Assembly: GCA_001275005.1 (NCBI GenBank)
Contig: JWZX01002746.1
Coordinates: forward strand, 1-41,484
Length of the DNA stretch: 41,484 nt
Direction: 5' to 3'
Source of the DNA: Chrysochromulina tobinii
Lineage: Eukaryota > Haptophyta > Prymnesiales > Chrysochromulinaceae
Shown here: positions 5,534 through 36,475 of the stretch, in pieces
How the letters are laid out: each line of letters starts with the position of its first letter
How positions within the stretch are numbered: position 1 is the first letter of the stretch
Program-made: the position numbers and the translations under genes
Notes under the pieces: model-generated
What the model was told of the DNA's origin: nothing
What the model saw: only the letters and a program-made list of their open reading frames with translations
Databases searched by the model: none

Positions 5534-5640
5534 GATCTTGGGGCTTCAACTCCTAATAGTAATAAAGATATTTACGGGTGGGTCGACTGTGATGCGGCGG
5601 GTACCTACTGGAGTCCCTGGTTTGGATCACGGCGTCGAGC

Positions 5641-8600
5641 ATGCACGGCACACTCTCGGTAGTCCTCCAGCACATTGATGGCGTCAGTGACGAGGACGTC
5701 AAAGGCGGCCCAGTCTATTGCTGCGTGCGGCTCAAGCAGCCACATCGCTTCCTCTTCTTGCGCTCGGACCCAGCCGACCTCTCCAGCGGAGCAGCTACTC
5801 TCGACCAGGAGCTTCTCTTCGATGGAGTCATTCTGTCACCAAACGCCGAGGGCACTCTCATCGTCGACGTGTGCACCGATGACGAGATGTGTAAATCCAG
5901 GCTCATCGGAAAGATCCGCTTGCTGCTCGAGGAGCTGCCGAGCGCTTCGCAGGCGTTTACACTCCTTTCAGGCCAGCTGACGCTCAAGTGCGAGCTCGCG
6001 GCTGCGCCCGAGCCCGAGACCTACGAGAACACAGAGCCGACCGGGGTGGCAATCGCAGGCAAGAAGCTACCGCTGCCTCCTTCATCAACCAGCGGCAAGC
6101 CGCCCCTGCCGCCGCCGTCTGCGGCCGCCAAGCCGGCGCTTCCGGCGCTCGTGCCGTCGGCAGCGTTTGGGGGGGACAAACTGACTCCAAAGACCAAAGT
6201 GGCCACGTCAGACATTGAAGATCGCCTGCGGCGCGCTCGCGGCATGACGGAGGCGCTGCAGACGAAGCTGGCCCTGCCGCCTAACAACGCCGCACCGGCG
6301 TCGGTGCCGCCCGCGCCCGCTGCGCCGGGGCCACCTCCCAAGACGGCGCCCGATGCGTCAGGGCTACCGCCCAAGACGGGCGACAAGCCGGATGCGGACG
6401 AGATGGACTCATTCCACTTCTGCGGGCAGCGCGCACGCCCGCGCAAGAAGATCGAGTACGCGCCGAAGGTGCACGAGACGTATCTCAAGCCGCCGCACTC
6501 GCTGCTGTCACGCTGGGGCGCGGGCGTCAACGTCGAAGCAGAGTGCTGCGAGCAGAGCGCTCTGTATGTGCTCGATGCGACTGAGCAGACGCAGATCTCC
6601 GAGTGCAAGGGCTGCCGCATCGTGATCGCGCCGGTCAACGGCTCTGCCTTCCTTATCGAGTGCGTCGACTGCATCATCTCGGTCGCCGCGCGCCAGATCC
6701 GGCTGCGCGACTGCGTCAACTGCGAGCTGCGTGTGTGGGCGCCATCCGACACAGCGCTCATCATCGAGACTTGCGATCACCTGTCGCTCGGGGAATGGGA
6801 ACTCGAGTACGATGGCCTCGAGGAGCAGTTTGGGCTCGCGCGCATCGACGCGACGAAGCCCAATTATTGGGACAAGGTATACGACTTCTCGCCCAGCGCA
6901 AATAGGAGCGAGAAGCACTACACGCTGCTGCCCAAGCGCACCGGCGCGCCGGTGCGGCTCGATGTGACGCCGGAGGGGCTTCACGGCGGGCGCGTGGTCG
7001 AGAGGGGAGCGGACGCAAAGACGGTCGCGCTGCTAGCGGCCGTCAACGGGGCGGCGCTGGTGGAGGACGAGGAGGCGGCGTCGGACGTGACGCCCGTCGC
7101 GCTGCAGCCCTCGGAGCCGGTGCCGCCCATCCCGCCGCCGCCACCGCCGCCGCCGCCACCGCCCGTCGCCACGCCGCCGCCCATCGCCGCGTCCACGTCG
7201 GAGCAGGAAGCTTACCTTGACGACTACGATGACGACCAGGAGGAGAGCGCCGGCGCGGCCCTCGTGCAACCCTCTCCGACGAGTTCAAAGGGCTCGCCGA
7301 CACGGCGCCCTTCCGCCTGGTCGGCGGCGATGGCGACCTCACCCGGGGGTCGCTCATTCACACTGCCGGACTATGACGATGCTGAGGATATCGAGGAGGT
7401 CGAGGACGCCATCGAGGCGTTCGTCGAAGACGACGACGAGGCCACCGCACCCGCGGCTTCGAGCAAAGGCTTCGTGGTCGGCTCCGTGAGCGGCGCGGTG
7501 GGCGGCGGCAGCGGCAGCGGCGGCGGCAGCGGCAGCGGCAGCGGCAGCGGCAGCGGCAGCGGCAGCGGCAGCGGCAGCGGCGGCAGCACTGCTGCGGCCG
7601 ACAGCGGCAACGGCGCTCGCGGCAGCACCAGCAGTAGCCCGGGTAGCCATGCGAACGCCACGAGCCCCAGCAGCACGAGTGGCCGTCATTTGCGCGGTCC
7701 GCAGCTGCCGCCACTCAGACAATCGCCAGCGTCCAAGCTGCCCTTACCTGCCGCGACGCTCTCGCCGCCTGGTGCGGCAGCCCCTCTGTCGCCTCTCAGT
7801 CCTCTGAGATCGTCACCCCAAACGGCTTCTGTGACGACGCGCGACGACCTTCGCGAAGACGCCCGGCAGCGCGCGGCCGCGGCCACGGGTGCGCCGGTCC
7901 CGTCGGCGGTGGCGATGCGCACGCTCGGCGCGAGCGCAGACGATGCAGAGGAGGTAGAGGATCTCGACGTCGAGATCTACGAGGAGGAGTTCGAGGATCT
8001 CGACGTCGAGGAGGATGAGGGCGACGATGAGGCCGGCGCGGCCGGTGGAGGTACCGGGACCGACACAGGTCCCGGCACCGGTCCCGGCACCAAGATCGGT
8101 AGCCTTGTGGAGCGCGCGGCGGCCGCGGCGGCGAAGGATACGGAATGGGCTCGACGAGTAGACGGCTTCGTCCAGACCCGTGTGCTCGGCTATGAGTCGC
8201 TCTCCAAAGGGGCACAAGCGAAGCTGCACGGGACCTTCCAGGAAGTGGTGGACGAGGTCCTCGAGGCACTCCTCGAGGCCACGGGCATCGAAGGCGAGGC
8301 GCTGCTGCACGAGGTGATGCAATTGACCCCCGAGTCGCTCCGACTACCGAGCACACACCGCGCACGGGCGCTCCAGATGCTCGCCCTCGACAACGCGAAG
8401 GCTCTGCATACGCTCATGATGAGCGAGCACAGCGCCGCGCTGGCTGACCCAGTGCGCCGCGCCGCGCTCGTCGCCGGCGCGAACGCGACGTGGCAGAGCC
8501 AGGTGCGCATCTTCCACAGCCCTCGCCCCCCTTCCACAGCCCTCCTTCCCACAGACATCCCTTCCACAGCCCTCGCCCCCCTTCCCCAGCCCTCCTTCCC

Positions 8601-8973
8601 ACCGACATCCCTTTTCCACAGCCCGATGACCTCCTCCCCTCCCTCCCCACAGGTGCGCACTTTCCACAGCCAGCACCGGCTCGCCTTCAAAAGTGGCGAT
8701 GGCTCGAGCGTCCTCAGCTGGACGACGATACACGAGCAGTTCCAGGTGGCCTGCGAGGAGGTGCTCGAGGCGGTCATGGAGCGCGCCAAGGCCGACCCGG
8801 AGCAGGTGCTCACCGCGCTCATGGCCAGTGTGCCGGACCTCGCCGCGAGCATCGCGCCACCCGGCCTCACGCCGCTGCCCACACACGCATGGCTGCCTTT
8901 GCGTGCCTTCGTCGAGTACCAGGCCTTCGAGGAGATGATGAAGGCCGATATGAGCGCATGGGAGCAGCCGTGA
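5641..8973 (+). CDS. RP2-like (C-CAP/TBCC) protein with C2-like N-terminus and C-terminal BART-like domains
   Basis: Unspliced frame of 1110 residues, or 1060 if 8503-8652 is removed as an intron. Residues ~1-110 look like a C2 domain (a tandem of beta strands, LIVDVCTDDEM). Residues ~120-255 are Pro/Ala-rich. Residues ~265-430 are an RP2-type TBCC/C-CAP beta-helix with CKGCRIVIAPVNGSAFLIEC and RQIRLRDC. Arg354 matches the RP2 arginine finger and Glu376 its partner, so GAP activity on ARL3-type GTPases is predicted. The following ~400 residues are low complexity: polyproline, (GS)n and acidic. Two C-terminal modules (~835-935 and ~1005-1110) resemble BART domains; the second has LSWTTIHEQF and ends AFEEMMKADM. 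The likely role is ARL3-dependent ciliary trafficking; the BART assignment is mine and needs a profile search. Confidence 0.8.
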   Translation: MHGTLSVVLQHIDGVSDEDVKGGPVYCCVRLKQPHRFLFLRSDPADLSSGAATLDQELLFDGVILSPNAEGTLIVDVCTDDEMCKSRLIGKIRLLLEELPSASQAFTLLSGQLTLKCELAAAPEPETYENTEPTGVAIAGKKLPLPPSSTSGKPPLPPPSAAAKPALPALVPSAAFGGDKLTPKTKVATSDIEDRLRRARGMTEALQTKLALPPNNAAPASVPPAPAAPGPPPKTAPDASGLPPKTGDKPDADEMDSFHFCGQRARPRKKIEYAPKVHETYLKPPHSLLSRWGAGVNVEAECCEQSALYVLDATEQTQISECKGCRIVIAPVNGSAFLIECVDCIISVAARQIRLRDCVNCELRVWAPSDTALIIETCDHLSLGEWELEYDGLEEQFGLARIDATKPNYWDKVYDFSPSANRSEKHYTLLPKRTGAPVRLDVTPEGLHGGRVVERGADAKTVALLAAVNGAALVEDEEAASDVTPVALQPSEPVPPIPPPPPPPPPPPVATPPPIAASTSEQEAYLDDYDDDQEESAGAALVQPSPTSSKGSPTRRPSAWSAAMATSPGGRSFTLPDYDDAEDIEEVEDAIEAFVEDDDEATAPAASSKGFVVGSVSGAVGGGSGSGGGSGSGSGSGSGSGSGSGSGGSTAAADSGNGARGSTSSSPGSHANATSPSSTSGRHLRGPQLPPLRQSPASKLPLPAATLSPPGAAAPLSPLSPLRSSPQTASVTTRDDLREDARQRAAAATGAPVPSAVAMRTLGASADDAEEVEDLDVEIYEEEFEDLDVEEDEGDDEAGAAGGGTGTDTGPGTGPGTKIGSLVERAAAAAAKDTEWARRVDGFVQTRVLGYESLSKGAQAKLHGTFQEVVDEVLEALLEATGIEGEALLHEVMQLTPESLRLPSTHRARALQMLALDNAKALHTLMMSEHSAALADPVRRAALVAGANATWQSQVRIFHSPRPPSTALLPTDIPSTALAPLPQPSFPPTSLFHSPMTSSPPSPQVRTFHSQHRLAFKSGDGSSVLSWTTIHEQFQVACEEVLEAVMERAKADPEQVLTALMASVPDLAASIAPPGLTPLPTHAWLPLRAFVEYQAFEEMMKADMSAWEQP
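7501..7587 (+). repeat. In-frame GGCAGC hexanucleotide repeat coding for (Gly-Ser)n
   Basis: A run of GGC AGC units, with occasional GGC GGC, encodes the Gly-Ser linker within the RP2-like protein. It is a simple slippage-prone sequence inside a longer disordered region. Length variation between strains would not shift the frame. Confidence 0.85.
8503..8652 (+). other. Probable in-frame intron of the RP2-like gene (150 nt) bounded by direct repeats
   Basis: The donor is CCAG|GTGCGC. The acceptor is an excellent pyrimidine tract, CCTCCCTCCCCACAG|GTGCGC. Length 150 is a multiple of three without stops, so the unspliced frame stays open, but the translated insert (FHSPRPPSTALLPTDIP and so on) is unlike the flanking helical protein. 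AGGTGCGCA..TTCCACAGCC occurs at both ends (8501-8521 and 8651-8671, two mismatches). Internally a ~50-base unit starting TTCCACAGCCCTCGCC is repeated twice. Alternatives are a retained coding repeat or alternative splicing. Confidence 0.65.
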
Positions 8974-9591: not shown

Positions 9592-11604
9592 ATGATTAGC
9601 ATCGTCCTCATCATTGCGGGTGGTCTCCTCTATCTATTGCGCGATGACGTCGCAGCATGGATACTGCGCAAAACCAACCTTCAGGCTGACGAATACGCCA
9701 GGGGCGCTGTTTTCCCGATGCGGCACGCGTTCGCATTCGTCGCTGCGGTCGTCGTAGTCCTCGGTAAGGGCCCTGTAGCGCTGTTAACGGACGATGGCAA
9801 GACGATCTTGAAGGTGACACGTGCTGACACTTCATCATTGTACGACGAGGCTCTCGACGCGCTCTACGCGGCAGCCGCGCGCAGCAACCGATGTGCAGTC
9901 CTCTGGCGCGAGCCAGGGCTGCAGCACGCTGATGATGAGCGCGGTCTATTGAGCGCCTTGCAGGACGCGGCGGCTCCCTATCGCGCCAGTGTCGAGGATG
10001 CAAGCGCAGCAGCGGAAGCAAAGCGCCTAGGCGCTGCCGCCGCCGCGTCGCGTCGTAGCGGGCGTAGCGCAGACACGTCCAGCATGGCCTTGCTGCTGCA
10101 CAAGCTCGCGGATGCGCTCGAGAGAGACGCCGCTTTGAACGCACTGGCATCTACCGCCAGCCCACAGGATCTGCGGGTCAGGGTCATGGACAAAGGCGAT
10201 GTCACCGATCGGTACTTTGAGCTGAGTCGGATCGAACCAGACGCAGGCTGGTCGGCGGCGCAGAGGAGCATTGCCGCCGAGGTCGTGCGCGTCGCCGTTG
10301 CTCGCTTCGCCATGCTCGCCGACGACCTTCATGACCGCTTCAGGGCACTGAGCGTGTGGCTAGCCGTTGACGGTGAGCACGGCAGTACTACGCGCAGCCA
10401 CTTCTGTGGGGCAGGCACTGATCCGGAGCTCTCGATCATTGCACGTGTCCTTGCGGACGATCTCGTTCATCTCGAGCCGCGCATCCCCGCCTCGAGCCAC
10501 TTTCCCATCTCTGCTCTCGAGGAGGCATCCACGATGGCCTCCGCCCTCGCTCGCGCCGCCGATCACCATCTCCGTGGCGCACAACACGATGCCTCACGAC
10601 GGCGCTTCGAGGCCAACCGCCGGCGCACCACGGTGCTGCTCGCCGAGGATCTTGGTGGCCTGAGAACGCTCACCGACGAGGCGCAGTACCACCGGGCAGC
10701 GACGCTGCTCGCTCCGATTGAAGTGGCGATCCGTGCCGACCCAAATTGGGAAGCGAGTGTGGACGTGGTGACGCACGCCGGAGGCCCTGCTCTCAAGCTC
10801 ACGTCGATCGTGCGCGTGCAGCTGCTGCTAGCGGTCGCCTACGAGCGCAGCGGGCGCCGCGACGAGGCTCAGGCGCTCCATCAGTTTGGGACCGCTCGTG
10901 CCACGCCACAGCAGTCTGGTGGTAGTAGCGGCTCGACAGGCGGCCTGCGCTCGCTTCATCATGGCGGCGTCGCCCCACTCAAGGGGACGAAGCTGCCGCT
11001 GCGTGCGCACGCCTTTTGGCGACGCGAAGAGCTCTCCGAGGAGGCCCAGGCCCTAGTAGAGGCGCTCGAGGCGCACTGGTCAGCCATCGCTCACGAAGCT
11101 ATGGAGGCCATGAGCATAGGAGCCTTCTTGCTCACCAAGGAGAACCTCGCAGCCAGCGCACGCCAATGGCAAAGCCTCGACCTGCGCCGGCGCGCCGAGC
11201 CGGTCGCCGAGCATTGCCGACTCAGCCCTTCCACGTGCAGCCTACTCGCACAGCATGCGGCCACACTGTCACCCATGGGCCAGGCCAAATTCTCGGCCTT
11301 GATCGGTGGCTCGCACATCTTCCCACACGCGGGGCCTTCCAACGGTAGGCTTCGCGTACACCTCGGACTCTACGTGCCAGAGCACGGATACGTAATCTCC
11401 GTGGACGGTGTGAACGCCACTTGGGTACCTGGGCAGGCGCTCGTGCTGGATGACTCGCTCGTGCATGAGGTCTTTGCCCCGCCGGCGGCGCGCGCTCCGT
11501 CGATGCGCATGATCCTCATTGTCGACATCCATCATCCCGATCTGCAGCCAAGCGAGATGGAGCGGGTGCGTCCGTTTGGCCCTCCACACGCCAGCAGCAA
11601 GTGA
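9592..11604 (+). CDS. Membrane-anchored aspartyl/asparaginyl beta-hydroxylase-like dioxygenase
   Basis: A predicted 2-oxoglutarate/Fe(II) oxygenase of 670 residues. The family hydroxylates Asp/Asn side chains of secretory-pathway proteins. The N-terminus is hydrophobic (ISIVLIIAGGLLYLL, residues 2-16), with a second hydrophobic stretch near residue 50, suggesting a type II anchored enzyme. The catalytic domain is at the C-terminus: FPHAGPSNGRLRVHLGL carries metal ligand His579 and DDSLVHEVF carries His625. As in animal ASPH the usual HxD aspartate is replaced (here HAG), so two-His iron binding is expected. MRMILIVDIHHPDL supplies the probable 2-oxoglutarate-binding Arg. The middle is helical with possible TPR-like character but no clear repeat. 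A single exon; the physiological substrate is unknown. Confidence 0.85.
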   Translation: MISIVLIIAGGLLYLLRDDVAAWILRKTNLQADEYARGAVFPMRHAFAFVAAVVVVLGKGPVALLTDDGKTILKVTRADTSSLYDEALDALYAAAARSNRCAVLWREPGLQHADDERGLLSALQDAAAPYRASVEDASAAAEAKRLGAAAAASRRSGRSADTSSMALLLHKLADALERDAALNALASTASPQDLRVRVMDKGDVTDRYFELSRIEPDAGWSAAQRSIAAEVVRVAVARFAMLADDLHDRFRALSVWLAVDGEHGSTTRSHFCGAGTDPELSIIARVLADDLVHLEPRIPASSHFPISALEEASTMASALARAADHHLRGAQHDASRRRFEANRRRTTVLLAEDLGGLRTLTDEAQYHRAATLLAPIEVAIRADPNWEASVDVVTHAGGPALKLTSIVRVQLLLAVAYERSGRRDEAQALHQFGTARATPQQSGGSSGSTGGLRSLHHGGVAPLKGTKLPLRAHAFWRREELSEEAQALVEALEAHWSAIAHEAMEAMSIGAFLLTKENLAASARQWQSLDLRRRAEPVAEHCRLSPSTCSLLAQHAATLSPMGQAKFSALIGGSHIFPHAGPSNGRLRVHLGLYVPEHGYVISVDGVNATWVPGQALVLDDSLVHEVFAPPAARAPSMRMILIVDIHHPDLQPSEMERVRPFGPPHASSK

Positions 11605-12094: not shown

Positions 12095-15000
12095 TCACCG
12101 CACCTCGTTCACAATCCTCAACGCCACGTCCGTCGGCACCGTCGGTTCCACGTCGTCCACGTCGGCAGCAGTAGCAGCAGCAGCACAGATCTCGTGCCCT
12201 TGGGTGCCGTCGAGTGCCCGCTCGCGCAGCGCCGCAAATTCGGTCGGACCGAGAGCCCTGGCGAGGCTGGCCAGCACGCCGTCTGGCTGGTCGAGCAGTT
12301 CGGCAGGTGGCCCATGCTCGAGCACCTTGCCGCCGCCCATGACGATGATCGAGGTGTAGTCGATCACCGTGCCGAGCCGATGCGCGATGGTGAGCAGCGT
12401 CGTCTTCTTGAACTCGGAGCGAAGGAGCGTTTGGATGGCCTCATCGGAGGCGCCGTCGAGATTCGACGTGGCCTCGTCCAGCACGAGTAGCCGACGCGGG
12501 TGCAGTAGCGCACGCGCAAAGCAGATGAGCTGCCGCTCGCCTGCGGATATGTTGGCGCCGCCATTTTGGACTTCGACGTCGAGCATGGAGCTCGGCAGGC
12601 GCGCACGCGTGACCACGTCACGATGACGCTCGGCTGTTGCGTCGCCAAAGGGGTCCAGATTATGCGCGACCGTCCCCTTGTACAGGATCGGATCTTGGGG
12701 GATGATCGTCGTCGCCTGGCGCGCCCGGGCAAGGCCGAGGTCGAGCAAGTTCACGCCGTCGATCGAGATCGAACCTCCCATCGGCTCCACTATCCGAAAG
12801 AGTGCGATCATGAGGGTGGACTTTCCCGCGCCAGTCCGGCCGACGATGCCCGCGCGCTCACGTGCAGCGAGGCAGAAGGAGACCCGGTCGAGCACCAGCG
12901 GGAGCCCTGGCCGATAGCGCACACACACGTCCCTGAACTCGACGCGGCCCGCCGCCGGCCAGATAGCGTCTCCCGCGGCCGGGTCGGTGGGCTTCGTGCG
13001 TGCCGCCTCTTGCGGCAGATGGAGGAACTCGAGAAGACGCTCAAGGGCCGTCAAGCTCGTGACGCACGCAATGTATAGCTGCGCCACGATGGAAATGTAG
13101 TACGGCACCACGTACGCGTATGTGATCGCAAGGGCGACCAGCGCAGGGCTGTGCTCGTCGCGCGTGGCGATCAGATAGAGTGCCACGCCCAGCGAGAGCA
13201 ACGCCGAGTACGACGCTTGGACCAGACCCCACGAGTTGAGAGCCTTCTGATGGAATGAGAGGCCCGCCCATTCTTCGATGAGCGCCCGCTGCCGCGATCC
13301 AAAGTACTCTTCGAGCTGCATTGCCCGGATCATGGGTGCGCCGTTGCGCAGCTCGGTGAGCGCCGAGAGGATCGGCGAGACCGCATTATTGGCCATCCGC
13401 TTCACCTCTCGGGAGGAGCGACCGGTAGCATCCATCACGAAGCACAAGTAGCCAACCATCAGGACGGCGGGTAGCGCGAGCAAGCCGCCTTGAAACGCGA
13501 CCGAAAGCACGATGCTCACCAGAGCGAAGCCGCCGAGCTGCAAGGTCGCATCGAGCTCGGCCCACATGGTCTGCTCAATGATCTGCAGATCGCCCGTGAA
13601 TCGGCTCATTGTGCGTCCACTCGGGTTAGCATCGTACCACCACATGGGTGCATGGATGAGACGGCGCACCACCTGCCCGTGTAGGGTGCGTGATGCTTCG
13701 ACCGAACCTGAGGCCCATGCGAGCGAGACGGCGAGCAGCAGGATCGCCTGCAGGAGCGAAAGGCCCGAATAGACAAGCATGTAGCGCAGGTTCACCTGAT
13801 GAGGGTTGCAATCAGTGGCGATGAGCGATCAGAGTCGATCAGAGTCGATTAGAGTCGATTAGAGGCGATCGGAGGTGATCAGAGGCGATCAGAGGCGATC
13901 AGAGGCGATCAGAGGCGATCAGAGGAGTCGAAGAGCATTGAGTGTAGGGACACCTCGGTGCTAGCATCCACTCCAATGGCCTCGTCCGTCGAAAGCAAGT
14001 ACAGGGTGTCGTTGGCCATGGCGGTGGTTCCGTTGGATGAGGCGTGGCTATCATGGGCCGAGGGGGGCGCCGAGTCCCTCTGCGCACGCGCCCAAATCGC
14101 AAGGGTCGCGTCTGCGGCCGCCACCACCGTATATGCGGAAACCAGTAGGGTCATGTACAGAAGGAGAGTCGGCGCGCCCATCGCTCGGTAGTAGCGAAGC
14201 ACGAGGCTGCTCCCGAGGGCTCCGCTCGACTTCTTCTCAGCCATGACGACCGACACACGCGGCTCGGCGGTGGTGGACTGGTCTGCGGCGGGCGAGGTTG
14301 AAGTGTTGGCGACCGTGCTGGGCGGCTGAGCGGTGCCGGAGGAGTCTACCGGCGGTGGCAGGGCGGCCGGCGGGGCCGCTTGCACGAGCTCATCGACCCC
14401 GTCGCGCACACCCAACGAGCCGTCCTCGCCTTGGCTAGGTACGATGGACGTCTCTATGAGCTTGCCACCCTCGATGGTGACGCATCGATCAAAGCCCGCG
14501 CCGAGCAGGTGCGGCTGGTTGAGCGACACGAGGGCGGCGCGCTTGCCGCCGGAGGCGTGCACGTAGTGCTTGAGCGTGCCCATTAGCGCTGCGGCTGTGC
14601 GTACATCAACCGCGCTCAAAGGATCGTCCAGCAGCAGCAAAGTCGGCTCCGCGAGCAAGGCGCGCGCAAGGGCCAGCCGCTGCTGCTGCCCGCCTGAGAG
14701 AGTCACGCCGCGCTCACCTACAGTCGTCTCGAGCCTGTCAGGCAGCCGGGTCAAGTCCTGCTCGAGGCAGCACGCATCGACGAGGCGGGCGAGCGTTTCG
14801 TCATTCACGGCGCGACCCATCACGAGATTCTCCCGCAGCGTGCCTGCAATCGGGCACGCTCGCTCGGGTGAGATTTAGGGGTAGGGTATCACGGTTCGAG
14901 ATCGGTTCGAGATCGAAAGTGATCTCTGGAAGCATGCCTGTGATCGTGAACGCGCGCTGCGGCACCATTCCGATGGATGCTGGGCCTCCTAATCGACCGG

Positions 15001-19489: not shown

Positions 19490-21430
19490 TCACTCCTCGC
19501 CGCGAGCCTTCCTCTCATGCGCATCCTGCATCTCCTGGGCCACCTTTTGCCCCACTGCCTCGACGTGCTTGGCAAAGTCGATGGTCTTCAGCGCGTCGGC
19601 CGAGCCGTACATCTGAAAGACACGGCCCAGGACCACGAGCCCACGCGCACGGTTCTTTCGGCCTTCCTTATCTGTCGACTTGTCGGCAAGGACCTTGTTG
19701 CACACGTGGCGTAGGGTCGACTCGATGTCGAGCAGACTCACTCGCCACATGGACTCGAGCATCAGGAACATCGTGTCCTCCGATGGGTTGCCATCCGGGA
19801 CCGACGCCTCACCCTCTCCCTCGCCGGCAGCCGACGCGCCGCCTTCGGCGCCGTTGGTGCCGCCGCTCGCGCCGCTGCCGCCGCCGCCGCCCTCGCTGCC
19901 GTTGATGGCGATGAGATTGGCCGGCTTCACCTTGATGCACTCACCGTCGCGGTCGATCGCGACCATGTAACGACCCACGCCCTCATCGAACGTCCCTGCG
20001 ACGCCCTCGCACCCATTCAGGTCGGCTCGCGCCGTGAGGCCCTCGATGCGCACCCGCTTGCCGTAGAGGGCACCAGGAGGCAAATCGGCACCAGTCGGCG
20101 GCGCCTCGCTGCTGCTGCTGCTGGGGCTGGGGCTGGGGCTGGTGCTGCTGGTGCCCGGGGCGGGGCTCCCGGCGCTGCTCGTCGCGGGCTTCTTCTTCTC
20201 TTTGGGTTTCTCTCCCTTGATATCCTTACGGTAGGCACGGTACGTCTTGATGGCGGCGCCGGCGACGCGCATCTGCGAGGCAGCGGTGTGGATCGTCTGC
20301 TGAAAGCCCGAGCCGACCGCGTCGATCCCGCCGAGGGCCTGCAGTCCCTTGTGCTCGTAGATGTAACCACATGTCCAAATTAGGGCATCGCCTACCGGCG
20401 CGTTGATGAGCACCTTTGCATGCTGATGCATCTCGGCCTCGAACTCGGCCTCATCGCCGTAGCAGAACTGCTGGAGCAGCCCCTTGAGGTTGAGCGCGCA
20501 CGTCACCTCGCGCCGCTTTTGCTTGTAGCTCATGTAGGCCTCGTCCATCTCACCGCCGTTGGCGAAGATGGTGGCGAGCTTCAGCTCACCGATCAGATAC
20601 TCGAAGGGCTCGGAGCCGAAGAGCATGGCGAAAAAGTGGGTCGGATCGACCATGGTCGAGGTGTCAAGGGCGGCCTTGCCCGACGCGTCGTACTTGGCGC
20701 GCATCTCCTCGTTGGAGAGAATTTGGTACGCCTCGCCTACCTTTTGGAACTTGGCGTGCGCGTTCGGGTCGCTCGTGTTCTTGTCCGGATGCAGCTCCCT
20801 GGCCTTGACGAAGTACGCCTTGCGGATGACGGCGGCGCTCGCGCTGCTCTCGACGCCCAGGACGTCGTACAGCTCCGTCTCCTTGACCTGCCCGCCGCGG
20901 GCCGAGGACGACTCCTTGTCGCCCGCTCGCTTGATCCCGTTCCGCTTGCAGTACTCGTCCTCACTGAGCGCGAGGACCTCCCGGGCCTCCTCATTCAGGT
21001 CGAAGACGACCCACTTGCGCGTGTCCTCGTCCCAGACCTTGCCCGCGTTGCTCTCCGCGAGCGCCTCGGGCGTGTTCCACACTCCACGTCCGAGCTGCAC
21101 CGCACCGACGACCACGCCGGCCACCGGCAGTGCGACCGCGCCTGCGACGCCGGCCGCGAGCCCGCCAAAGAAACCCTTGACACCGTTCTCGCGCGCGCCG
21201 ATGATGGGCGCCGCGACTAGTCCGGTGACGCCCATGGCGGCACCTTTGAGTACGCTCTTTGCAGCGGACGCCGCCCCCGCCTGCACATTCCGCGGCCGGC
21301 GCGTCGAGAAGAGGGTCGGCATGTCATTTTCCGAGGGGCCGCCATCAGTGCCTTCACCCTGCACCACTAACGCCTGGGAGCCGCTCCAGGCGGCCTGGGC
21401 AGCTGGCGACGCCGGCGTAGGTTCGGCCAT
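19490..21430 (-). CDS. DnaJ protein with DnaJ-X domain and glycine-rich hydrophobic N-terminus
   Basis: J-domain co-chaperone of 646 residues. The ATG at 21430 is used because the longer frame starts with TTG. Residues ~55-120 are Gly/Ala-rich and hydrophobic (GLVAAPIIGARENGVKGFFGGLA), a segment that could associate with membranes. The J domain is ~185-250: YDVLGVESSASAAVIRKAY and HPD at 214-216, intact. DnaJ-X follows: HFFAMLFGSEPFEYLIGELKLA. Then come a Lys/Ser-rich linker, a KOW/SH3-like segment (GKRVRIEGLTARADLNGCEG), a glycine linker, and a second DnaJ-X-like C-terminus (ESMWRVSLLDIESTLRHVCNKVL). Similar plant and algal J proteins are ER or cytosolic. Hsp70 partner unknown. Confidence 0.9.
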   Translation of the reverse strand: MAEPTPASPAAQAAWSGSQALVVQGEGTDGGPSENDMPTLFSTRRPRNVQAGAASAAKSVLKGAAMGVTGLVAAPIIGARENGVKGFFGGLAAGVAGAVALPVAGVVVGAVQLGRGVWNTPEALAESNAGKVWDEDTRKWVVFDLNEEAREVLALSEDEYCKRNGIKRAGDKESSSARGGQVKETELYDVLGVESSASAAVIRKAYFVKARELHPDKNTSDPNAHAKFQKVGEAYQILSNEEMRAKYDASGKAALDTSTMVDPTHFFAMLFGSEPFEYLIGELKLATIFANGGEMDEAYMSYKQKRREVTCALNLKGLLQQFCYGDEAEFEAEMHQHAKVLINAPVGDALIWTCGYIYEHKGLQALGGIDAVGSGFQQTIHTAASQMRVAGAAIKTYRAYRKDIKGEKPKEKKKPATSSAGSPAPGTSSTSPSPSPSSSSSEAPPTGADLPPGALYGKRVRIEGLTARADLNGCEGVAGTFDEGVGRYMVAIDRDGECIKVKPANLIAINGSEGGGGGSGASGGTNGAEGGASAAGEGEGEASVPDGNPSEDTMFLMLESMWRVSLLDIESTLRHVCNKVLADKSTDKEGRKNRARGLVVLGRVFQMYGSADALKTIDFAKHVEAVGQKVAQEMQDAHERKARGEE

Positions 21431-21469
21431 GAATCGATTTGCGTTCGGAATCCAGAAAAAAGGGTGTGT

Positions 21470-21535
21470 CTGTGAAGATACAAGCAAGCAGAGGAGGAAG
21501 TACGACTACGCTTGCTTGCTTGCTTGTGAAGATAC
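21470..21535 (-). other. Candidate 5'-UTR intron of the DnaJ gene with repeats at both ends
   Basis: On the coding strand GTATCTTCACA occurs at both ends of this 66-base stretch. The first copy offers a donor (TTC|GTATCT) and the second an acceptor (TATCTTCACAG|ACAC). Inside, AAGCAAGCAAGCAAGC and GCTTGCTTG are complementary and could form a stem. It lies 40 bases before the ATG. Splicing is unproven; the same sequence could instead be a 5'-UTR hairpin. Confidence 0.35.
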
Positions 21536-23361: not shown

Positions 23362-23511
23362 GTTAACGTTCACGGGGAGAACATTGTGCGAGGGCATGTA
23401 AGGTGTGTGTATTCTGAGCGGGCAGTAACAGTGCCGTAGCAGTGCCGTACCGGTAGCACCGGTTGTCGCGTCGAACGTGTGACATGGTGTGAACGTTCAC
23501 AAAGTCACGTG
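23362..23511. promoter_or_regulatory. Palindromic promoter words and an E-box upstream of the F-box gene
   Basis: A perfect 12-base palindrome GTGAACGTTCAC (23489-23500) and a near copy GTTAACGTTCAC (23362-23373) sit 41-180 bases before the ATG, with CACGTG at 23506-23511. Such symmetric sites usually bind dimeric factors. The function is inferred from position and symmetry only. Confidence 0.4.
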
Positions 23512-23540
23512 CCTCGGCAGACGCGAACACGCGATCAAGG

Positions 23541-25664
23541 ATGAGCATGAAGCACGACGATGACAGCGACGCCGACGACGACAGTGCCTACGGCTTGTCG
23601 ACATGTGAAATATCCTCCGTGCTGGTGAGGACGAAGTGGCTGGCTCACCGATTTTTCGATGCATGCGATTCCGACCGGGCGTTCAAGGCGAATGCACACG
23701 CACTGGCAATCGTTCCGCCATTGACAATGTCCGCCATTGGGACGTTCGACGTGGAGCTTCTGGGCACTCCTGGGCTACGCCTACTCATAGTAACGGCGGG
23801 CTTCTCTGAAGAGGACCTCTTCGACCCGGAAGCCCTCGTTGACCGTGCTTCCATGGCGATGGAGAACATGCATCTTCCTGGAAGCATAGACCACGACCGG
23901 CAGGCATGGGAGCTCAAGCGCGCCCTAAGTATGGTGGCGGTCGTGGCATCGGGGAGGAGACACGAGTTGCACGACGAGCTGCAGCCGACAAGCCAACATC
24001 TGGCGTGCGCCCGCAGCAGCCTCGGGCCCACGGAGCAAGGACGTGCTCGCATAACAGCTGGCCTGCGATTCTTGCGCTGTGCGTACACGTGGCTGAGAAG
24101 GGGGGGCATCGAGCCCGAGCCTGCGCCGGAGATCGGCTTCAACGAGACACACCTTGTTATGGAGCACGAGGTTCAGGATGCACACGATGTGGCTGTGACA
24201 AGCATGCTCCTTCGCACCTGTGACATGAGCAAGCTGCAAGATTTGATGTCCATGGCCGAGATGATGGCCGAGAGGTCAATGGCCGATAGGATATCCATAC
24301 CCAAGAGCACCGCGTCCGCAGTTGCAAGTGAGGCCACACCCTGGCTCTACCTCGTCCAAGCCCTCCTCACGATCATTCAGCCTCCCCCAGCGTTCTACTT
24401 CAAATCCGGTTGGCAGCTTCCCGTTCTCTCAATAGACGATTTGTTCGATCTGGAGCTGCTCAAGGGCCGTGCGCGGGAGGCAGTCGCGAAGCGATGCGAC
24501 GATGCGGCTCCCTTCCCGATGCGAAGCCTGGACGATCGAGCACCACTCATCAGCCTCCTCCACATCGAAACAATCGCGGCCGCAATTCTCGACCACGTTG
24601 ACCCTCGCGAGCACTTTGCCTTCAAGATGACGTGCCGACGTTTCCGCGCCGCACAAATGAGCACCTGGACTCCGCCCGGGCGGGGCAGTAGCCCGCCTGA
24701 GCGGGGCAGTAACCTGACTACAAGGACCTCATTTGGCCTATTTGTCGAGCGCGACCGGCCGGAGCTGATGGAGTGGGCCATCTCTGTAGGCGCTCCCTGG
24801 CCTACTGGTGGAGTGCGCTTGAGGCTCAAACTCAATTACAAGAACGTGAGCACCGATCTGACCGAGCTGAACTCACCACGTTGGCATCTCTTCACAGAGC
24901 TGAAAATGGAGCGTGAGTTGACCACGCCAACGAATGCGTTGACTGGAATGAACTCTGCATGGACTGGGGCGAGGCGGCGGATCGTAAGTCTCTGCGCTGC
25001 GGCAGGTAGCCTTGCTATGCTTCGCTGGGCGCGGTCGCTGCCTGTGCCGTGCCCATGGGACGAGGAGGAATTTTCCTCATGGGACGAGGAGGGATTTCGC
25101 TCCTTGCCCTCGCGCCCCTGCGAGCTAGCGGCGGGCGGGGGACACCTTGCTACGCTCGAGTGGTTGAGAGAGCAGGTCCCGCCACTGCCTTGGGGTAACA
25201 CTCTCGCAGCGGCTGCAAGTGGCGGGCACGAGCGTGTGTTTGAGTGGGCGCTTGCCGCCGGAGCAGGCAACATCCGCAACCAAAGTGTGGTACTTGCGGC
25301 CGCTCGAGGAGGCAGCTTCCCGATCCTACAACATGTGTGGGCAGCAGGTGGTCAAGAGATCGTCCTCGCGGATTTCCGACTTTTGGTCTCCATCGTGAAG
25401 TATCTGGACGCTTCCACTATCTCATGGCTTTTCGAGGAGGTGCTCCCTCCCCACAAGTGGCCAGCCGCTGAAAGGGACCACTTTGGTTGGGTCGCCTCGA
25501 TCTGGTCGGGCGCGGCTGCGCGTGGTAGGCTCTCCGTGCTCCAGACACTCCACGAGATCGGATTCGTCAAGCCTTCAGAGGGCATGCACAGTCACATCCT
25601 CCTCCACGCCTCGAATGGCACGATCAACCATGTCCCTGAATATCTCAGGCCTACACCTGCATAG
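23541..25664 (+). CDS. F-box / ankyrin-like repeat protein (5' part)
   Basis: 707 residues from the ATG at 23541. An F-box-like helical motif is at ~335-375 (LLHIETIAAAILDHVDPREHFAFKMTCRRFR), following a ~330-residue N-terminal region of unknown fold. The rest contains degenerate ankyrin-like repeats ending in LEWLR-type helices: SLAMLRWARSLP, HLATLEWLREQ, RVFEWALAAG, SVLQTLHEIG. Proteins of this layout are common as expanded families in algae and large DNA viruses, where they are thought to be SCF substrate adaptors. The frame stops at 25664, but repeats resume at once in another frame (next entry). Upstream DNA is less GC-rich than most of the window. Confidence 0.6.
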   Translation: MSMKHDDDSDADDDSAYGLSTCEISSVLVRTKWLAHRFFDACDSDRAFKANAHALAIVPPLTMSAIGTFDVELLGTPGLRLLIVTAGFSEEDLFDPEALVDRASMAMENMHLPGSIDHDRQAWELKRALSMVAVVASGRRHELHDELQPTSQHLACARSSLGPTEQGRARITAGLRFLRCAYTWLRRGGIEPEPAPEIGFNETHLVMEHEVQDAHDVAVTSMLLRTCDMSKLQDLMSMAEMMAERSMADRISIPKSTASAVASEATPWLYLVQALLTIIQPPPAFYFKSGWQLPVLSIDDLFDLELLKGRAREAVAKRCDDAAPFPMRSLDDRAPLISLLHIETIAAAILDHVDPREHFAFKMTCRRFRAAQMSTWTPPGRGSSPPERGSNLTTRTSFGLFVERDRPELMEWAISVGAPWPTGGVRLRLKLNYKNVSTDLTELNSPRWHLFTELKMERELTTPTNALTGMNSAWTGARRRIVSLCAAAGSLAMLRWARSLPVPCPWDEEEFSSWDEEGFRSLPSRPCELAAGGGHLATLEWLREQVPPLPWGNTLAAAASGGHERVFEWALAAGAGNIRNQSVVLAAARGGSFPILQHVWAAGGQEIVLADFRLLVSIVKYLDASTISWLFEEVLPPHKWPAAERDHFGWVASIWSGAAARGRLSVLQTLHEIGFVKPSEGMHSHILLHASNGTINHVPEYLRPTPA

Positions 25665-31195: not shown

Positions 31196-34100
31196 TCACG
31201 AGGAGACTGTCCAATCTCGACCAATCTCCTTGAGTGCGGACTTGGTGATGCGCGTGGGCGTGGCTCCCGGGTGCGCGGCCAGGTACGCTTTTAGGTTCGC
31301 GAGCGCGTCACGCTCCGCCTGCAGCTCGGCCAGCAGCGTCGCGTGAAGCTGGCGCTCGGCCGCGGCGCGCTCGCGTGCGGCTTCGAGCTCAAGCTGCTGT
31401 GTATCAGCCGCGGCCGCTGCGTCACGCAGCTTGCGCCGCAGCTCACGGTTCGCCTGCTTGTAGTAAAAGTTGTCCTTCCCGAGCACCTCGAGCGTCTGCT
31501 GCGAGGGCGAACGCGCCACCGAGCTCGCGACACTGTCGGGGGTGCGCTCGTCAGCAGAACGCGACTCAGAGCGGCTAGGTGTGAGTGCCGACGTCACCAC
31601 TTCGCCGTCACGGCCCGTGGCCTCGGCGGCGCTGCGATCGGCGTCGGCGCCGGTCGGCGCACCGGCCGGCGGTGGTGGCTGGTCGTGCTGCGACGCTCGT
31701 GATGGCGCTTTTGCATGCTGCAGCTGCGCCTGAAGAGTTTGCACCACGCGCTGCTGCTCGATGAGCTCGCGCACATGGCGCGCATGCGCGTGCTCGAGGC
31801 GGCGCTCGGCATCCGCGGCCGCCTGGCGCGCGGCCGCCTGAGCAGCGGCGACGGCGGCGTCCTTATCGCTCAGCGCGAGCTCGGCCGCCTCGAGCTGGCG
31901 TGCCTTGATCTTCTGGTCGTGGCGCAGCTCGAGCAGCCGGCTCAGGTTCGCCGAGAGCACACGGCGCGCGACCGGTAGGGACATGTGCGCGAGCTGCGCA
32001 TCGAGCTGCTCCGTCGAGGGCATCCCGCCGCCCATCTGCCCTATCGACTCGCGCAGCTCGCCGATGGCCGAGTTGCGGAACTCGAGTGTCGCAGTGAGAT
32101 CCTCGAGCTGCTCCTCGAGCGCACGGAGCTCGGACTGGGCAGCGGCGTCGAGCAGCTCGGCGCCGCCTGCCTCCCCGAGGGCCTCAAGCTCGGCGAGACG
32201 CTCCTGGGCCTCGCGCCGCTCGGTGAGCAATTGGGGCAGCTCCGCGCCGCCCTCGCCCTCGCCGCCCTCGCCGCCCTCGACGTCCTCGACGCCGCCGGCC
32301 TCTCGCTCGCGGGCCTCGGCGATGAGGGTGTCGAGCTGCGCGAGGTGCTGCGAGAGGTCGTCCATCGAGGTGCGCCGCGAGATTGCGGTGCGCATTTGAC
32401 GCAGCTGGAGGGCCTCGCGGGACGCTAGCACGGCCTCCTGCTCCGCGAGCACGGCCTCGCGCCGGCCTAGCTCAACGGCCAGTGCGTCGGCTGCCTCCTT
32501 ACGCTTGAGCAACGCCTCCTCCAAGGCCACCTGCTCCGCGGCTGCCTCCCGCGCTTCCCGCGCCTCCCGCGCGTCGCGCGCCTCGCGTGCCTCGGCATGC
32601 GCCGCATGTGCTGCGGGCGCGGCTTTGGACGGCGACGGGATGAGCGACGGGCGGCTGCAGCCTTCGGCGTCCGCAGCGGCCTTGCGCGCGGTCGCCGCAG
32701 GCTTGGAGGCGACAGCAGGCGTACCATTGGACGTCCGACCGTTGGGCGTCGCCGCCTCGGGCCGGGCCGACAACGGCAGACGGCTGGTCGCTCCCTGTGC
32801 CCCGCCTCCTCCACCGCCTGCGCCGACGCCTGCGCCTGCGACTGCGACTGCGCCGACGCCTGCGCCGACGCCTGCTCCTGCGCCGGTCCCGGTCCCGGTC
32901 CCGGTGCCGCTGCCGCTGCCGCTGCCACTGCCGCTGCGCCGGCGCTGGGGCACGGCACCATCCTGTGTCTGACGCTGCAGCAGCTGCAGCTGGCGCGCGT
33001 TCGTCTGCTCGAGCGTGCGGACCTTCTTGACATACTCCTCCGACTGCTTGCGCAGCATGAGCAGCTCACGCTCGCCCTCGAGCCGACGCTGCTCGTACCG
33101 CTCCTGCTTGGCGCGCAGCGCGTCGCGCAGCCCCGACTGCTGTGACTTCATTCGCGCCACCTCGGCATGCAGCTCGGCGAGCTTACGTTCGGCGTCCTCT
33201 CGTGACTTGAGCGCGCGCTCCTGCTCACGCTGCTTGCGGCGCATCTCGCCTAGCCGGCTCTCGGTCTCCTTAAGACGACGCTCGTACTCGAGGCGCAGCG
33301 AGCGCTTCTGCTCCTCGCTCTTGCCCGCCTGCCGCTCGGCGCTCTCCATCTCGAGCTTCGTCGAGTGCAGCTCCTCCTGCAACGTGACAATCTGGCGCGA
33401 CATCTCGCCCAGTCGCTCCTGGTACGACTGCACCACCGACTTGCTCTCCTGGTCGGCTCGCATCAGATCGCGAATCAGCTCCTCCTTGAGCCGGATGTTG
33501 AGCGTCAGGTCGCGCACCGACGCGGTGATCTGCTGCTGCTGAGCCTCGTGATCGAGCGAGAGCGACTCCGACTCGGCCGCCGCGGCCGCCGCCTGAGAGC
33601 TAAGCTGGCGCTGGTCGTTTTGCAACTGCTCGCGCTCGCGGTCGAGCTCCCGAATGTCGCGCTCGAGCGCCGCGATTTCTTCGCTCGCAGGCAAGGATCG
33701 GCCGACGACGGCGGCGACCACCTCGCCTCCGGCACCCTCCGCGGCTGCCGCCGCCACCGCCGCCGCCGCCGTGCCGTCGTCATCGGTGGGCGCCTCGAGC
33801 ATCTTCTCAGAGAGCTCCTCGTCGCCGCAGAGTACCTCGTCATCTGCCTCGAGGCGCTCCGCATACGCACGGCTGGGCGAGCAGGTGAGGTGTAGCGGCC
33901 CCTCGTCCGCCGCTTCGATGCCGCCGCCTGCGCCACCGCTGCGCTCGCTGCCGCCGCTTCTGACCGAGTCGAGGGTGGCACTGAGTGCAAGCGGGCTGAG
34001 GCCACTGGCACGGCTGCGGGTACTCGCCGCCGAGGGGGGGGTGTCGTAGGGCGCGCCTTCTTCGTCGAGCCGGCGCCGCGCGCTGCCGGCGCGGCTCCGG

Positions 34101-36349
34101 GCGCGGCTGCCAGCAGCAGCCGGCAGGCCGCCCGAGTCGAGGCTATTGGCGTGCGTGCCGTCGTCGGCTTCGTTGACGCCCTCGGTGTACAGCGACGCCT
34201 GCAGAGCGGCGTGCGCCTCCCGCAGCGAGCCGTACGCGCGGTGTAGCTCACGCAACTCCTTGAGCTTCTCCGCAAAGATCTGCTCGTCGCGCCCCAAGTC
34301 GGCCCTCGCTTCAGCCAACTCGGATGCGAGCGAAGCGGAATGAGCCCGACTCTCATGTAGGTCGGCTTCGCGCGCTGCGAGGGCGTTCCGAAGGCGCACC
34401 ACCTCCTCGGCGGCGTGCGCGCGCGCTGCGGCGAGCGCACCGGGGGCACCCTCGCCCTCGCCGCCAGCGTGCAGTGCGCCGACGGGTTCGGTGGGCGAAC
34501 GGCGCGGCGGCGCGGACCAGGGGCGACTTGCGCTCGGAGGGGTTGTGGGGGGTAGCGTCAGTTTGCCACGAGTCTGCGCGCCAGAGGTGCTTGCTGCGAC
34601 GATGGCGTCGTGCGAGGCGGCGGCAGGCGCGAGCAAGCCCTCCTCCAGCTGCGCCAGCTGCTGCACCGCAAGCGACTGCAGCAGCTGGCCGCGCTCGGCC
34701 GCGCGCCGGAGCGCATCGACCACCGACGTCGCTGGCTCTCCGCTCGTCGCTAGATTGTCGTCGGGCTCCAGCAGCGTCACATTCGTCCCCAGCCGATGGG
34801 TGAGCTGTGCCCGCTGTGCTTCGGCGCGCCCCCACTGCTGGATCGTGTGCCGCAGTAGCTGCAACGGCGCCGAGGCGGCGGCCGAGGCGTCGGCCCAGGC
34901 GGCTGTGGAGGAGCGCCGCAGGGGCGAGGCACTCGGAGAGAGGTCAGGAGAGCCAAGGGGCGTGAGCCCCGCGTCGCGTCTCGCTTCCTCCCGACCACGT
35001 GCATGCTGCACGAGCGCGGCGAGCAGCTGCTGCATCTGTTCGGCGGGCAGCTCAGCGCGCATCACCGAGAGCACGTGCTGGCTCAGCGGCAGCGGCATTG
35101 ACGAACCGCGCAGCTCGCCATCCTCGTCGCCATACAGCACCTCACCGCCCTGCTCGTCCACGCGTGCGAGGTTGCCGGCAGGCGGCGGCGGCGGCGGCGA
35201 CGGCAGCTGGCCCTGCTGCTGCTGCTGTTGCCGCTGCAGCTGCGCCTGCAGTGCCGCGATCTCCTCGCGCAGATCCACCACGCTCGGCATCTCGCGATTC
35301 ACAACCGGCTTGTTGGTAATGTTGCGCGCGCGGTTCGCGTACCGGAGCGTGTTGAGCGACTCGTCGAGGTTGCCGTCGGCGGGCGAGACGCACGCGACCA
35401 TGAGGGTGCGCGTATTGCCGCCGAGAGAGTCCTGAAGCAGCCGCGTGAGCTTCGACTCGCGGTACGGCACGTGCTGCGCGAGCGAGCTCTTATGCCGGCC
35501 TTGCTGGTCGCAGAGGGCCGCGATCACGTTGCCGAGCGCCATCAGACCCTGGTTGATCGAGACACTCTCCTTGAAGCGCTGCCCGACGGCGCCCGTCTTC
35601 TTGGCACGCTCGGAGCCGGCCAGATCCACCAGGTGCAGCTTGGACACGATGCGCTCCGCCCCCGCTCCCTTGGGGCGCTGCTCGACGATCACCGAGAAGA
35701 GCGAGTGCGAGCGCGACGAGACGGCGTTCATCAGGGTGGATCCGGTGGCGCGCCAGGCGGAACCGGCCTCGAGGCACTCGAAGAGCTCCTCCTTGGCGCC
35801 CACGGCGCGCTCGTGCACGCCCGTCAAGAAGATGCCGCCAGACGCGTCCTCGCGGATCGAGATCGACTTGGCGGGCGTGCGAGGATTCAGAAGGTCCTTG
35901 ACCTCTTCGTTGTAGATCTCGAGGTAGGTGGCGCGCACGAGGAACTCGGCCTCATCGGCGCGGGCGCGCAGTGCTTCGAAGAGGCCGTCCACCACGCGCG
36001 GCACCACGCCGCGCATCTCGGGCGCGACGCACGAGAGGCTGCCGCTGCCCATAGTGTACGTCTTCCCGGAGCCCGTTTGGCCGTAGGCGAAGACAGTCGC
36101 ATTGTAGCCCTGCATGCACGCCTCGACGAGCGGCGCGCACGCCTCATCATAGACGCTCTGCTGCGAAGCGTCCTCGCCAAAGACAAAGTCGAAGGTGAAC
36201 GCGCGGTCCTTGCCCACCACCAGCTGCCGCTCTGCCGGGTGCACCTTCAGGCACAAGCTCTGCTGCTCGAGCTTCTCCTTGGGGATCATGGGACGCACGC
36301 GCACGGCGACCTTGACGTGGTCGTCGGCGCGTTCATCCTCGGCTGGCAT
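31196..36349 (-). CDS. Kinesin motor protein, kinesin-4-like (KIF4/KIF21/KIF27 group)
   Basis: Plus-end microtubule motor of 1717 residues in one exon. The N-terminal motor domain (~10-350) has P-loop GQTGSGKT at 90-97, switch I NAVSSRSHS, switch II LVDLAGSERAKKTG, and the neck-proximal LNTLRYANRARNITNKPVVNR; all ATPase residues are present. The LAGSERAKKTGAVGQRFKES and ALGNVIAAL blocks are typical of kinesin-4. The stalk contains low-complexity blocks and long heptad coiled coils (~900-1200 and ~1290-1650), with a Gly-Thr/Gly-Ala repeat near 1130-1180 (32797-32945). No WD40 or chromokinesin Cys-rich tail is seen, so KIF27/KIF7-like flagellar function is possible. A divergent promoter is shared with the DUF3638-like gene. 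Confidence 0.93.
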   Translation of the reverse strand: MPAEDERADDHVKVAVRVRPMIPKEKLEQQSLCLKVHPAERQLVVGKDRAFTFDFVFGEDASQQSVYDEACAPLVEACMQGYNATVFAYGQTGSGKTYTMGSGSLSCVAPEMRGVVPRVVDGLFEALRARADEAEFLVRATYLEIYNEEVKDLLNPRTPAKSISIREDASGGIFLTGVHERAVGAKEELFECLEAGSAWRATGSTLMNAVSSRSHSLFSVIVEQRPKGAGAERIVSKLHLVDLAGSERAKKTGAVGQRFKESVSINQGLMALGNVIAALCDQQGRHKSSLAQHVPYRESKLTRLLQDSLGGNTRTLMVACVSPADGNLDESLNTLRYANRARNITNKPVVNREMPSVVDLREEIAALQAQLQRQQQQQQGQLPSPPPPPPAGNLARVDEQGGEVLYGDEDGELRGSSMPLPLSQHVLSVMRAELPAEQMQQLLAALVQHARGREEARRDAGLTPLGSPDLSPSASPLRRSSTAAWADASAAASAPLQLLRHTIQQWGRAEAQRAQLTHRLGTNVTLLEPDDNLATSGEPATSVVDALRRAAERGQLLQSLAVQQLAQLEEGLLAPAAASHDAIVAASTSGAQTRGKLTLPPTTPPSASRPWSAPPRRSPTEPVGALHAGGEGEGAPGALAAARAHAAEEVVRLRNALAAREADLHESRAHSASLASELAEARADLGRDEQIFAEKLKELRELHRAYGSLREAHAALQASLYTEGVNEADDGTHANSLDSGGLPAAAGSRARSRAGSARRRLDEEGAPYDTPPSAASTRSRASGLSPLALSATLDSVRSGGSERSGGAGGGIEAADEGPLHLTCSPSRAYAERLEADDEVLCGDEELSEKMLEAPTDDDGTAAAAVAAAAAEGAGGEVVAAVVGRSLPASEEIAALERDIRELDREREQLQNDQRQLSSQAAAAAAESESLSLDHEAQQQQITASVRDLTLNIRLKEELIRDLMRADQESKSVVQSYQERLGEMSRQIVTLQEELHSTKLEMESAERQAGKSEEQKRSLRLEYERRLKETESRLGEMRRKQREQERALKSREDAERKLAELHAEVARMKSQQSGLRDALRAKQERYEQRRLEGERELLMLRKQSEEYVKKVRTLEQTNARQLQLLQRQTQDGAVPQRRRSGSGSGSGSGTGTGTGTGAGAGVGAGVGAVAVAGAGVGAGGGGGGAQGATSRLPLSARPEAATPNGRTSNGTPAVASKPAATARKAAADAEGCSRPSLIPSPSKAAPAAHAAHAEAREARDAREAREAREAAAEQVALEEALLKRKEAADALAVELGRREAVLAEQEAVLASREALQLRQMRTAISRRTSMDDLSQHLAQLDTLIAEAREREAGGVEDVEGGEGGEGEGGAELPQLLTERREAQERLAELEALGEAGGAELLDAAAQSELRALEEQLEDLTATLEFRNSAIGELRESIGQMGGGMPSTEQLDAQLAHMSLPVARRVLSANLSRLLELRHDQKIKARQLEAAELALSDKDAAVAAAQAAARQAAADAERRLEHAHARHVRELIEQQRVVQTLQAQLQHAKAPSRASQHDQPPPPAGAPTGADADRSAAEATGRDGEVVTSALTPSRSESRSADERTPDSVASSVARSPSQQTLEVLGKDNFYYKQANRELRRKLRDAAAAADTQQLELEAARERAAAERQLHATLLAELQAERDALANLKAYLAAHPGATPTRITKSALKEIGRDWTVSS

Positions 36350-36475
36350 GGCCGCCGCACCAAGGCCTCAGGGAAGAGGACCCACACCTCTGCGAGCCCG
36401 AGCAGGGCCGCTTTCGCGCCTTTCGATGACTTTCCCCGGAGAGACGGGACGCGCAGCCGTTTTGCATTTTTGGAA
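36350..36475. promoter_or_regulatory. Compact divergent promoter with E2F-like site
   Basis: Only 126 bases separate the kinesin ATG from the nearest rightward ATG (36476). TTTCGCGCC at 36412-36420 fits the E2F consensus TTTSSCGC and runs into GCGCCTTTCG (36416-36425), also found in the eIF2-alpha/CWC24 divergent region at 3786-3795. No TATA box. Role inferred from position. Confidence 0.45.

Follow-up and report, generated by a model that had tools for sequence, protein, structure and literature searches.

A predicted fusion of an RP2-type GAP domain with two BART-type modules in the haptophyte Chrysochromulina tobinii

Can a single polypeptide both capture a small GTPase and switch it off? 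The question is raised by an open reading frame (ORF) on the forward strand, at positions 5641 to 8973, of a 41,484-nucleotide stretch of Chrysochromulina tobinii DNA (contig JWZX01002746.1, assembly GCA_001275005.1), hereafter called the window. A preliminary description of this ORF, made from the sequence alone, proposed that an RP2-type GTPase-activating protein (GAP) domain is fused to BART modules, and that the protein would both bind and inactivate the same GTPase, ARL3, in a flagellar cycle. The predicted architecture, in which a single frame encodes an RP2-type GAP domain together with two BART-type modules, is almost certainly real. As for its function, the best reading is that the fusion represents a joined form of the hand-over from BARTL1 to RP2 suggested by Lokaj et al. 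(2015).

Architecture of the fusion gene

The stop-free stretch spans positions 5593 to 8973 of the window, with an ATG at 5641 and 1110 codons. About 400 residues separate the TBCC domain from the BART modules in the same chain. In profile searches for the three domain families named in the preliminary description, TBCC and both BART modules exceeded the Pfam cut-offs and C2 did not. The features are as follows.

5641 to 8973, +: complete ORF of 1110 codons and a stop codon (1060 codons without the predicted intron)
5641 to 5994, +: N-terminal domain (residues 1-118), at most C2-like (weak PDB C2 matches, low-confidence model)
6394 to 6516, +: RP2-type lead-in, residues 252-292, common to the plain paralogue on contigs C693/C1637
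6526 to 6888, +: TBCC/RP2 GAP domain, residues 296-416, Pfam E 1.3e-27
6700 to 6702, +: R354, counterpart by alignment position of the RP2 arginine finger R118
6766 to 6768, +: E376, counterpart by alignment position of RP2 E138
6961 to 8106, +: low-complexity linker of 382 codons with Pro, Gly-Ser and acidic runs and no in-frame stop
8131 to 8427, +: BART module 1, residues 831-929, Pfam 24.0 bits (cut-off 23)
8503 to 8652, +: predicted GT..AG intron of 150 bases, in-frame, C-rich, G-poor and largely made of 50-base repeats
8485 to 8946, +: BART module 2 (Pfam), in two parts (8485-8502 and 8653-8946) on either side of the predicted intron; 59.5 bits, E 4.4e-16 for the spliced module pair

The GAP half

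The TBCC domain scored 96.4 bits against a Pfam cut-off of 24.8. Its best PDB sequence matches were RP2 at 58.9 bits and then tubulin cofactor C at up to 44.6 bits, a ranking by score only. Residues R354, E376, Q352, R356, S335 and F337 align with R118, E138, Q116, R120, S99 and F101 of RP2, the roles of which are taken from the available text of PMC4539340 and PMC8271468. The pairing of R354 and E376 with the arginine finger and its partner glutamate upholds what the preliminary description had assigned. The position of RP2 Q115 is occupied by R351, with Q116 kept as Q352; these two glutamines are described as positioning GTP (PMC4539340, PMC8271468, in the parts available). At the Q115 position, the plain paralogue has K, the RP2-type exon on contig C2001 has R and a Leishmania TBCC domain has H. 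We assign the GAP half to the RP2-type TBCC domains, and its main catalytic residues are predicted to be in place.

The N-terminus had been described as C2-like, which was not confirmed: Pfam C2 gave no match in the fusion protein at E values up to 10, and residues 1-118 found two weak PDB matches (E 0.42 and 1.3), both C2 domains. The structural model of this part was rich in beta-strands and of low confidence, with a predicted local distance difference test score (pLDDT) of 44.1. A Pfam search for an NDK domain also gave no match in the fusion protein; in human RP2, the tail is NDK-like and the N-terminus is acylated.

Eight TBCC matches were found in the genome, and four of them, in the window and on C693, C1637 and C2001, look RP2-type, the C2001 exon as judged by eye; by eye, those on C1020, C369, C1993 and C2009 do not. 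C693 and C1637 are 99.8% identical over 2244 bases and perhaps represent one gene assembled twice. The fusion is one of at least three predicted RP2-type loci in the alga. The plain paralogue on C693 has 49% identity with the fusion protein over 205 residues, with the lead-in and the tail on either side of the TBCC domain in common, and its frame terminates in CIVS, a CaaX-like ending. A BART search of the genome contigs gave no match on C693, C1637 or C2001.

The BART modules

When the complete ORF was searched, the Pfam family ARL2_Bind_BART (PF11527) matched it twice (E 1.6e-11), and each module alone exceeded the cut-off of 23: module 1 (8107-8502) with its 24.0 bits and the exon-2 part of module 2 (8653-8973) with 30.8 bits. 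We also built an independent hidden Markov model (HMM) from 20 BART domains, 18 from the genome and two from PDB chains, none of them from the window. It gave 48.8 bits for module 2 and 19.0 bits for module 1; the top score among 2000 shuffled sequences, 1972 of which were reported, was 7.9. The strings LSWTTIHEQF and AFEEMM were present in the second module, as described earlier. The C-terminal part, modelled unspliced from its sequence alone, was helical (pLDDT 48.9), and a fold search with this model returned no useful match.

The resemblance between the two modules noted in the preliminary description proved sound. Their alignment scored 82, against a maximum of 54 among 2000 shuffles, and this exceeded the score of either module with any of 20 other BART domains (best 67 for module 1, with CFAP36; best 72 for module 2, with the domain on C1413). 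The likeness fits an internal duplication, which the alignment scores suggest by a modest margin.

An in-frame intron goes unmentioned in the preliminary description. The predicted one (8503-8652) starts with GT and ends with AG, and contains 57% C and 10% G, compared with 33% C and 33-35% G in its flanks. Because its length is a multiple of three, the frame is open with or without its removal. When it was removed, the Pfam BART score of the C-terminal piece rose from 50.8 to 59.5 bits, that of the whole protein on the independent HMM rose from 51.7 to 57.5 bits, and module 2 began upstream of the intron. Within it, a 50-base unit is repeated 2.2 times (positions 8511-8624, 93% matches). When the opening 19 bases of the intron are compared with those of the exon that follows, 17 agree, which may be a clue to how the intron arose. 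Several CACAG sequences in the intron would be decoy acceptor sites.

The residues of CFAP36 that contact ARL3 have been listed by Lokaj et al. (PMC4635315, available sections). We read these positions on a MAFFT alignment of 22 BART domains, and the readings depend on that alignment. At the switch positions E44, E45, L48, T51 and F106 of CFAP36, module 1 has S, L, G, A and A (none of five kept) and module 2 has G, S, L, T and Y (three of five, counting Y for F). Module 2 thus has no acidic pair, and it aligns an R with the groove position L101. Of the genome's 18 BART domains outside the window, 15 have an acid at 45, 14 have L at 48 and 17 have F or Y at 106. The GTPase face of module 1 appears lost, and module 2 is intermediate. 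We do not class module 1 as an ARL-binding BART domain; its predicted role is most likely in structure or partner binding. Module 2 is, on this alignment, the better preserved of the two.

BART fusions and ARL-cycle genes in the genome

The assembly comprises 53 Mb in 2253 contigs, and at least 20 BART matches lie on 18 of them, the two in the window included. A Pfam scan of the BART ORFs took in nine of the 17 further BART contigs. It revealed fusions to ankyrin repeats (C191), RING (C1108), NYN (C1413) and ankyrin repeats plus a protein kinase (C1797), a pair of BART domains on C1347, and BART alone on C984, C1973, C1526 and C426. The RING-BART protein carries an acidic pair in the motif EENKL. 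Some short proteins (L006, L007, L050 and L052) have VPEGVxxGDxxxV-like repeats ahead of the BART domain, and in the two scanned (L006 and L007) Pfam gave no name for this part.

Several other genes of the ARL cycle were found. An ORF on C511 begins with MGLLTIL and is what we take to be an ARL2-like gene. C2119 carries an ARL13B-like gene (top match ARL13B chain 5di3_B, 113.4 bits), and C984 carries a CFAP36-like gene (E 8.5e-31 to 4zi3_D). On C1973 lie a GMP_PDE_delta family gene, presumably UNC119-like, and, by eye, an ARL2BP-like gene. No ARL3 was recognised among the 20 of 36 Arf-family matches in the assembly that were translated, despite the ARL13B-like, UNC119-like, CFAP36-like and RP2-type genes. 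The gene could have disappeared from the lineage, be interrupted by introns or be absent from the assembly.

A hand-over reading and its alternatives

Work on the separate proteins lends support to a hand-over. In the parts of PMC4635315 available to us, RP2 is reported to dissociate BARTL1 from ARL3-GppNHp in vitro, a triple complex of BARTL1 and RP2 on ARL3 is considered possible by structural overlay, and BARTL1 is reported to lower the amount of ARL3 on liposomes; the authors speculated that BARTL1 presents ARL3 to RP2. We tentatively favour, at somewhat less than even confidence, the view that the fusion is a GAP for a GTPase of the ARL2/ARL3 class with a built-in, partly degenerate capture arm derived from BART. 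Module 2 would grip the GTP-loaded ARL through its N-terminal amphipathic helix and hold it off the membrane. The captured GTPase would then pass to the tethered TBCC domain, a step we suggest because RP2 displaces the BART protein from ARL3 in vitro, and hydrolysis of GTP would be accelerated. Owing to the tether, the captured ARL-GTP would meet a higher local GAP concentration. The N-terminal domain, in turn, might direct the protein to a membrane or basal body. A bolder version seems to us unlikely: the protein would be a single-chain off-switch whose BART arm strips ARL-GTP from a membrane or effector and delivers it to the GAP domain of the same chain, and the lineage, by distributing BART domains across numerous proteins, would have rewired which machines can read ARL2/ARL3-GTP.

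The hand-over is supported, at the level of sequence, by the conserved RP2 catalytic positions, by BART scores above the cut-off that improve once the intron is removed, by the shuffle-controlled HMM, and by L48, T51 and the aromatic residue at 106 in module 2. We also count the ARL13B-like, UNC119-like, ARL2-like and CFAP36-like genes in its favour. Other observations weigh against it: the lost switch face of module 1, the missing acidic pair and the groove R of module 2, the change at Q115, the joining of BART to several unrelated domains and the unrecognised ARL3. The loss of the acidic pair counts against module 2 in particular, since the E44/45R double mutant of CFAP36 is reported to abolish the interaction with ARL3 (PMC4635315, available text). 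The same text describes RP2-stimulated hydrolysis in vitro as unaltered by BARTL1, and ARL2BP is reported, in what is available of PMC7817177, as a co-GEF (guanine nucleotide exchange factor) that stabilises ARL3-GTP, which is the opposite direction. The proposal that one chain binds and inactivates the same GTPase was upheld for the architecture and the main GAP residues, was not supported for binding by module 1 and was supported in part for module 2. That both halves serve the same GTPase in a flagellar cycle is something we infer, because ARL3 was unrecognised and BART is reused in other fusions.

The main rival to the hand-over is a scaffold, in which the BART modules no longer bind any ARL and would instead position an otherwise ordinary RP2-type GAP, as a helical adaptor or a tail for dimerisation, comparable to the trypanosome TOF-LisH part. 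We consider this possible, if rather doubtful. It would account for the switch positions lost in module 1 (five of five) and module 2 (two of five), whereas the acid at 45 and the aromatic at 106 are retained in most of the genome's remaining BART domains, and it agrees with the RING, ankyrin, kinase and NYN fusions. The add-on domains of RP2 also vary by lineage, and in Trypanosoma brucei N-terminal motifs are reported to suffice for targeting (PMC3879569, available parts). However, module 2 scored its 48.8 bits on an HMM built without it, and its L48, T51 and the Y at position 106 are more than a simple scaffold would require.

A considerably less probable view is that the lineage has lost ARL3 and that the target of the fusion is a different GTPase, with ARL2 or an ARL2-like protein the likeliest candidate. 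A human ARL3 query found the MGLLTIL-start ORF as its best match (52% identity), and a degenerate pattern search of the assembly for TPTQGFN, an ARL3 motif, gave no match. BART is also reported to bind ARL2 (PMC4635315, available sections). Yet the same source gives ARL3, not ARL2, as the substrate of human RP2, and the genome has the ARL13B-like and UNC119-like genes; moreover, the absence of ARL3 is weak evidence because the assembly is in 2253 pieces and introns split genes. Finally, a gene-model artefact that merged an adjacent RP2 gene and a tandem-BART gene is very improbable, since the linker, though of low complexity, is free of stops over 382 codons (chance of about 0.001 from base composition) whereas the other five frames of this stretch hold 7, 9, 6, 6 and 4 stops.

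Significance and genomic surroundings

Whether BART proteins deliver ARL3-GTP to RP2 was a speculation of 2015 based on overlay and displacement (PMC4635315, as far as available), and the fusion does not settle it. When two activities are fused in nature, this is classically taken as a hint that one follows the other. Because GAP and BART parts lie in one gene, the hand-over proposed between separate proteins becomes testable in a single chain, in which capture, competition and hydrolysis could be measured through point mutants. The genome is also one where a domain of the ARL-reader type has been combined with RING, kinase, ankyrin and NYN domains. The available portions of the literature on ARL2_Bind_BART/TBCC or on RP2, BART, ARL3 and CFAP36 (including PMC4635315 and PMC12700831) contained no report of a TBCC and BART fusion. 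We do not claim that it is unique to this alga, the sole eukaryotic genome compared being the assembly of the window itself.

Elsewhere in the window, Pfam identified an aspartyl/asparaginyl beta-hydroxylase (9592-11604), an ABC transporter (12095-13828), a DnaJ-X protein (19490-21505) and a kinesin of 1723 codons with a KIF21A-like domain (31196-36367). The frames at 23493-25664 (723 codons) and 36430-40155 (1241 codons) gave no Pfam matches at E 1e-5.

Comparison with known systems

The closest known relative of the GAP half is RP2/XRP2, the ARL3 GAP (PDB 2bx6 and 3bh6), with 34% identity to the fusion protein over 134 aligned residues. The fusion differs in its N-terminus, which consists of MHG and the unproven C2-like domain, and in its tandem BART C-terminus. 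CFAP36/BARTL1 and ARL2BP/BART have the same Pfam domain as the modules, with a similar helix pattern and a partly kept hydrophobic groove; here, in contrast, two tandem copies are carried on a GAP, the acidic pair is gone in both, and the whole switch face is gone in module 1. Trypanosome RP2 (TOF-LisH plus TBCC) is likewise an RP2 with a lineage-specific extra part, and its arginine is reported to be essential. According to the available text (PMC3879569), that extra part is an N-terminal motif for targeting to the basal body rather than an ARL-binding domain.

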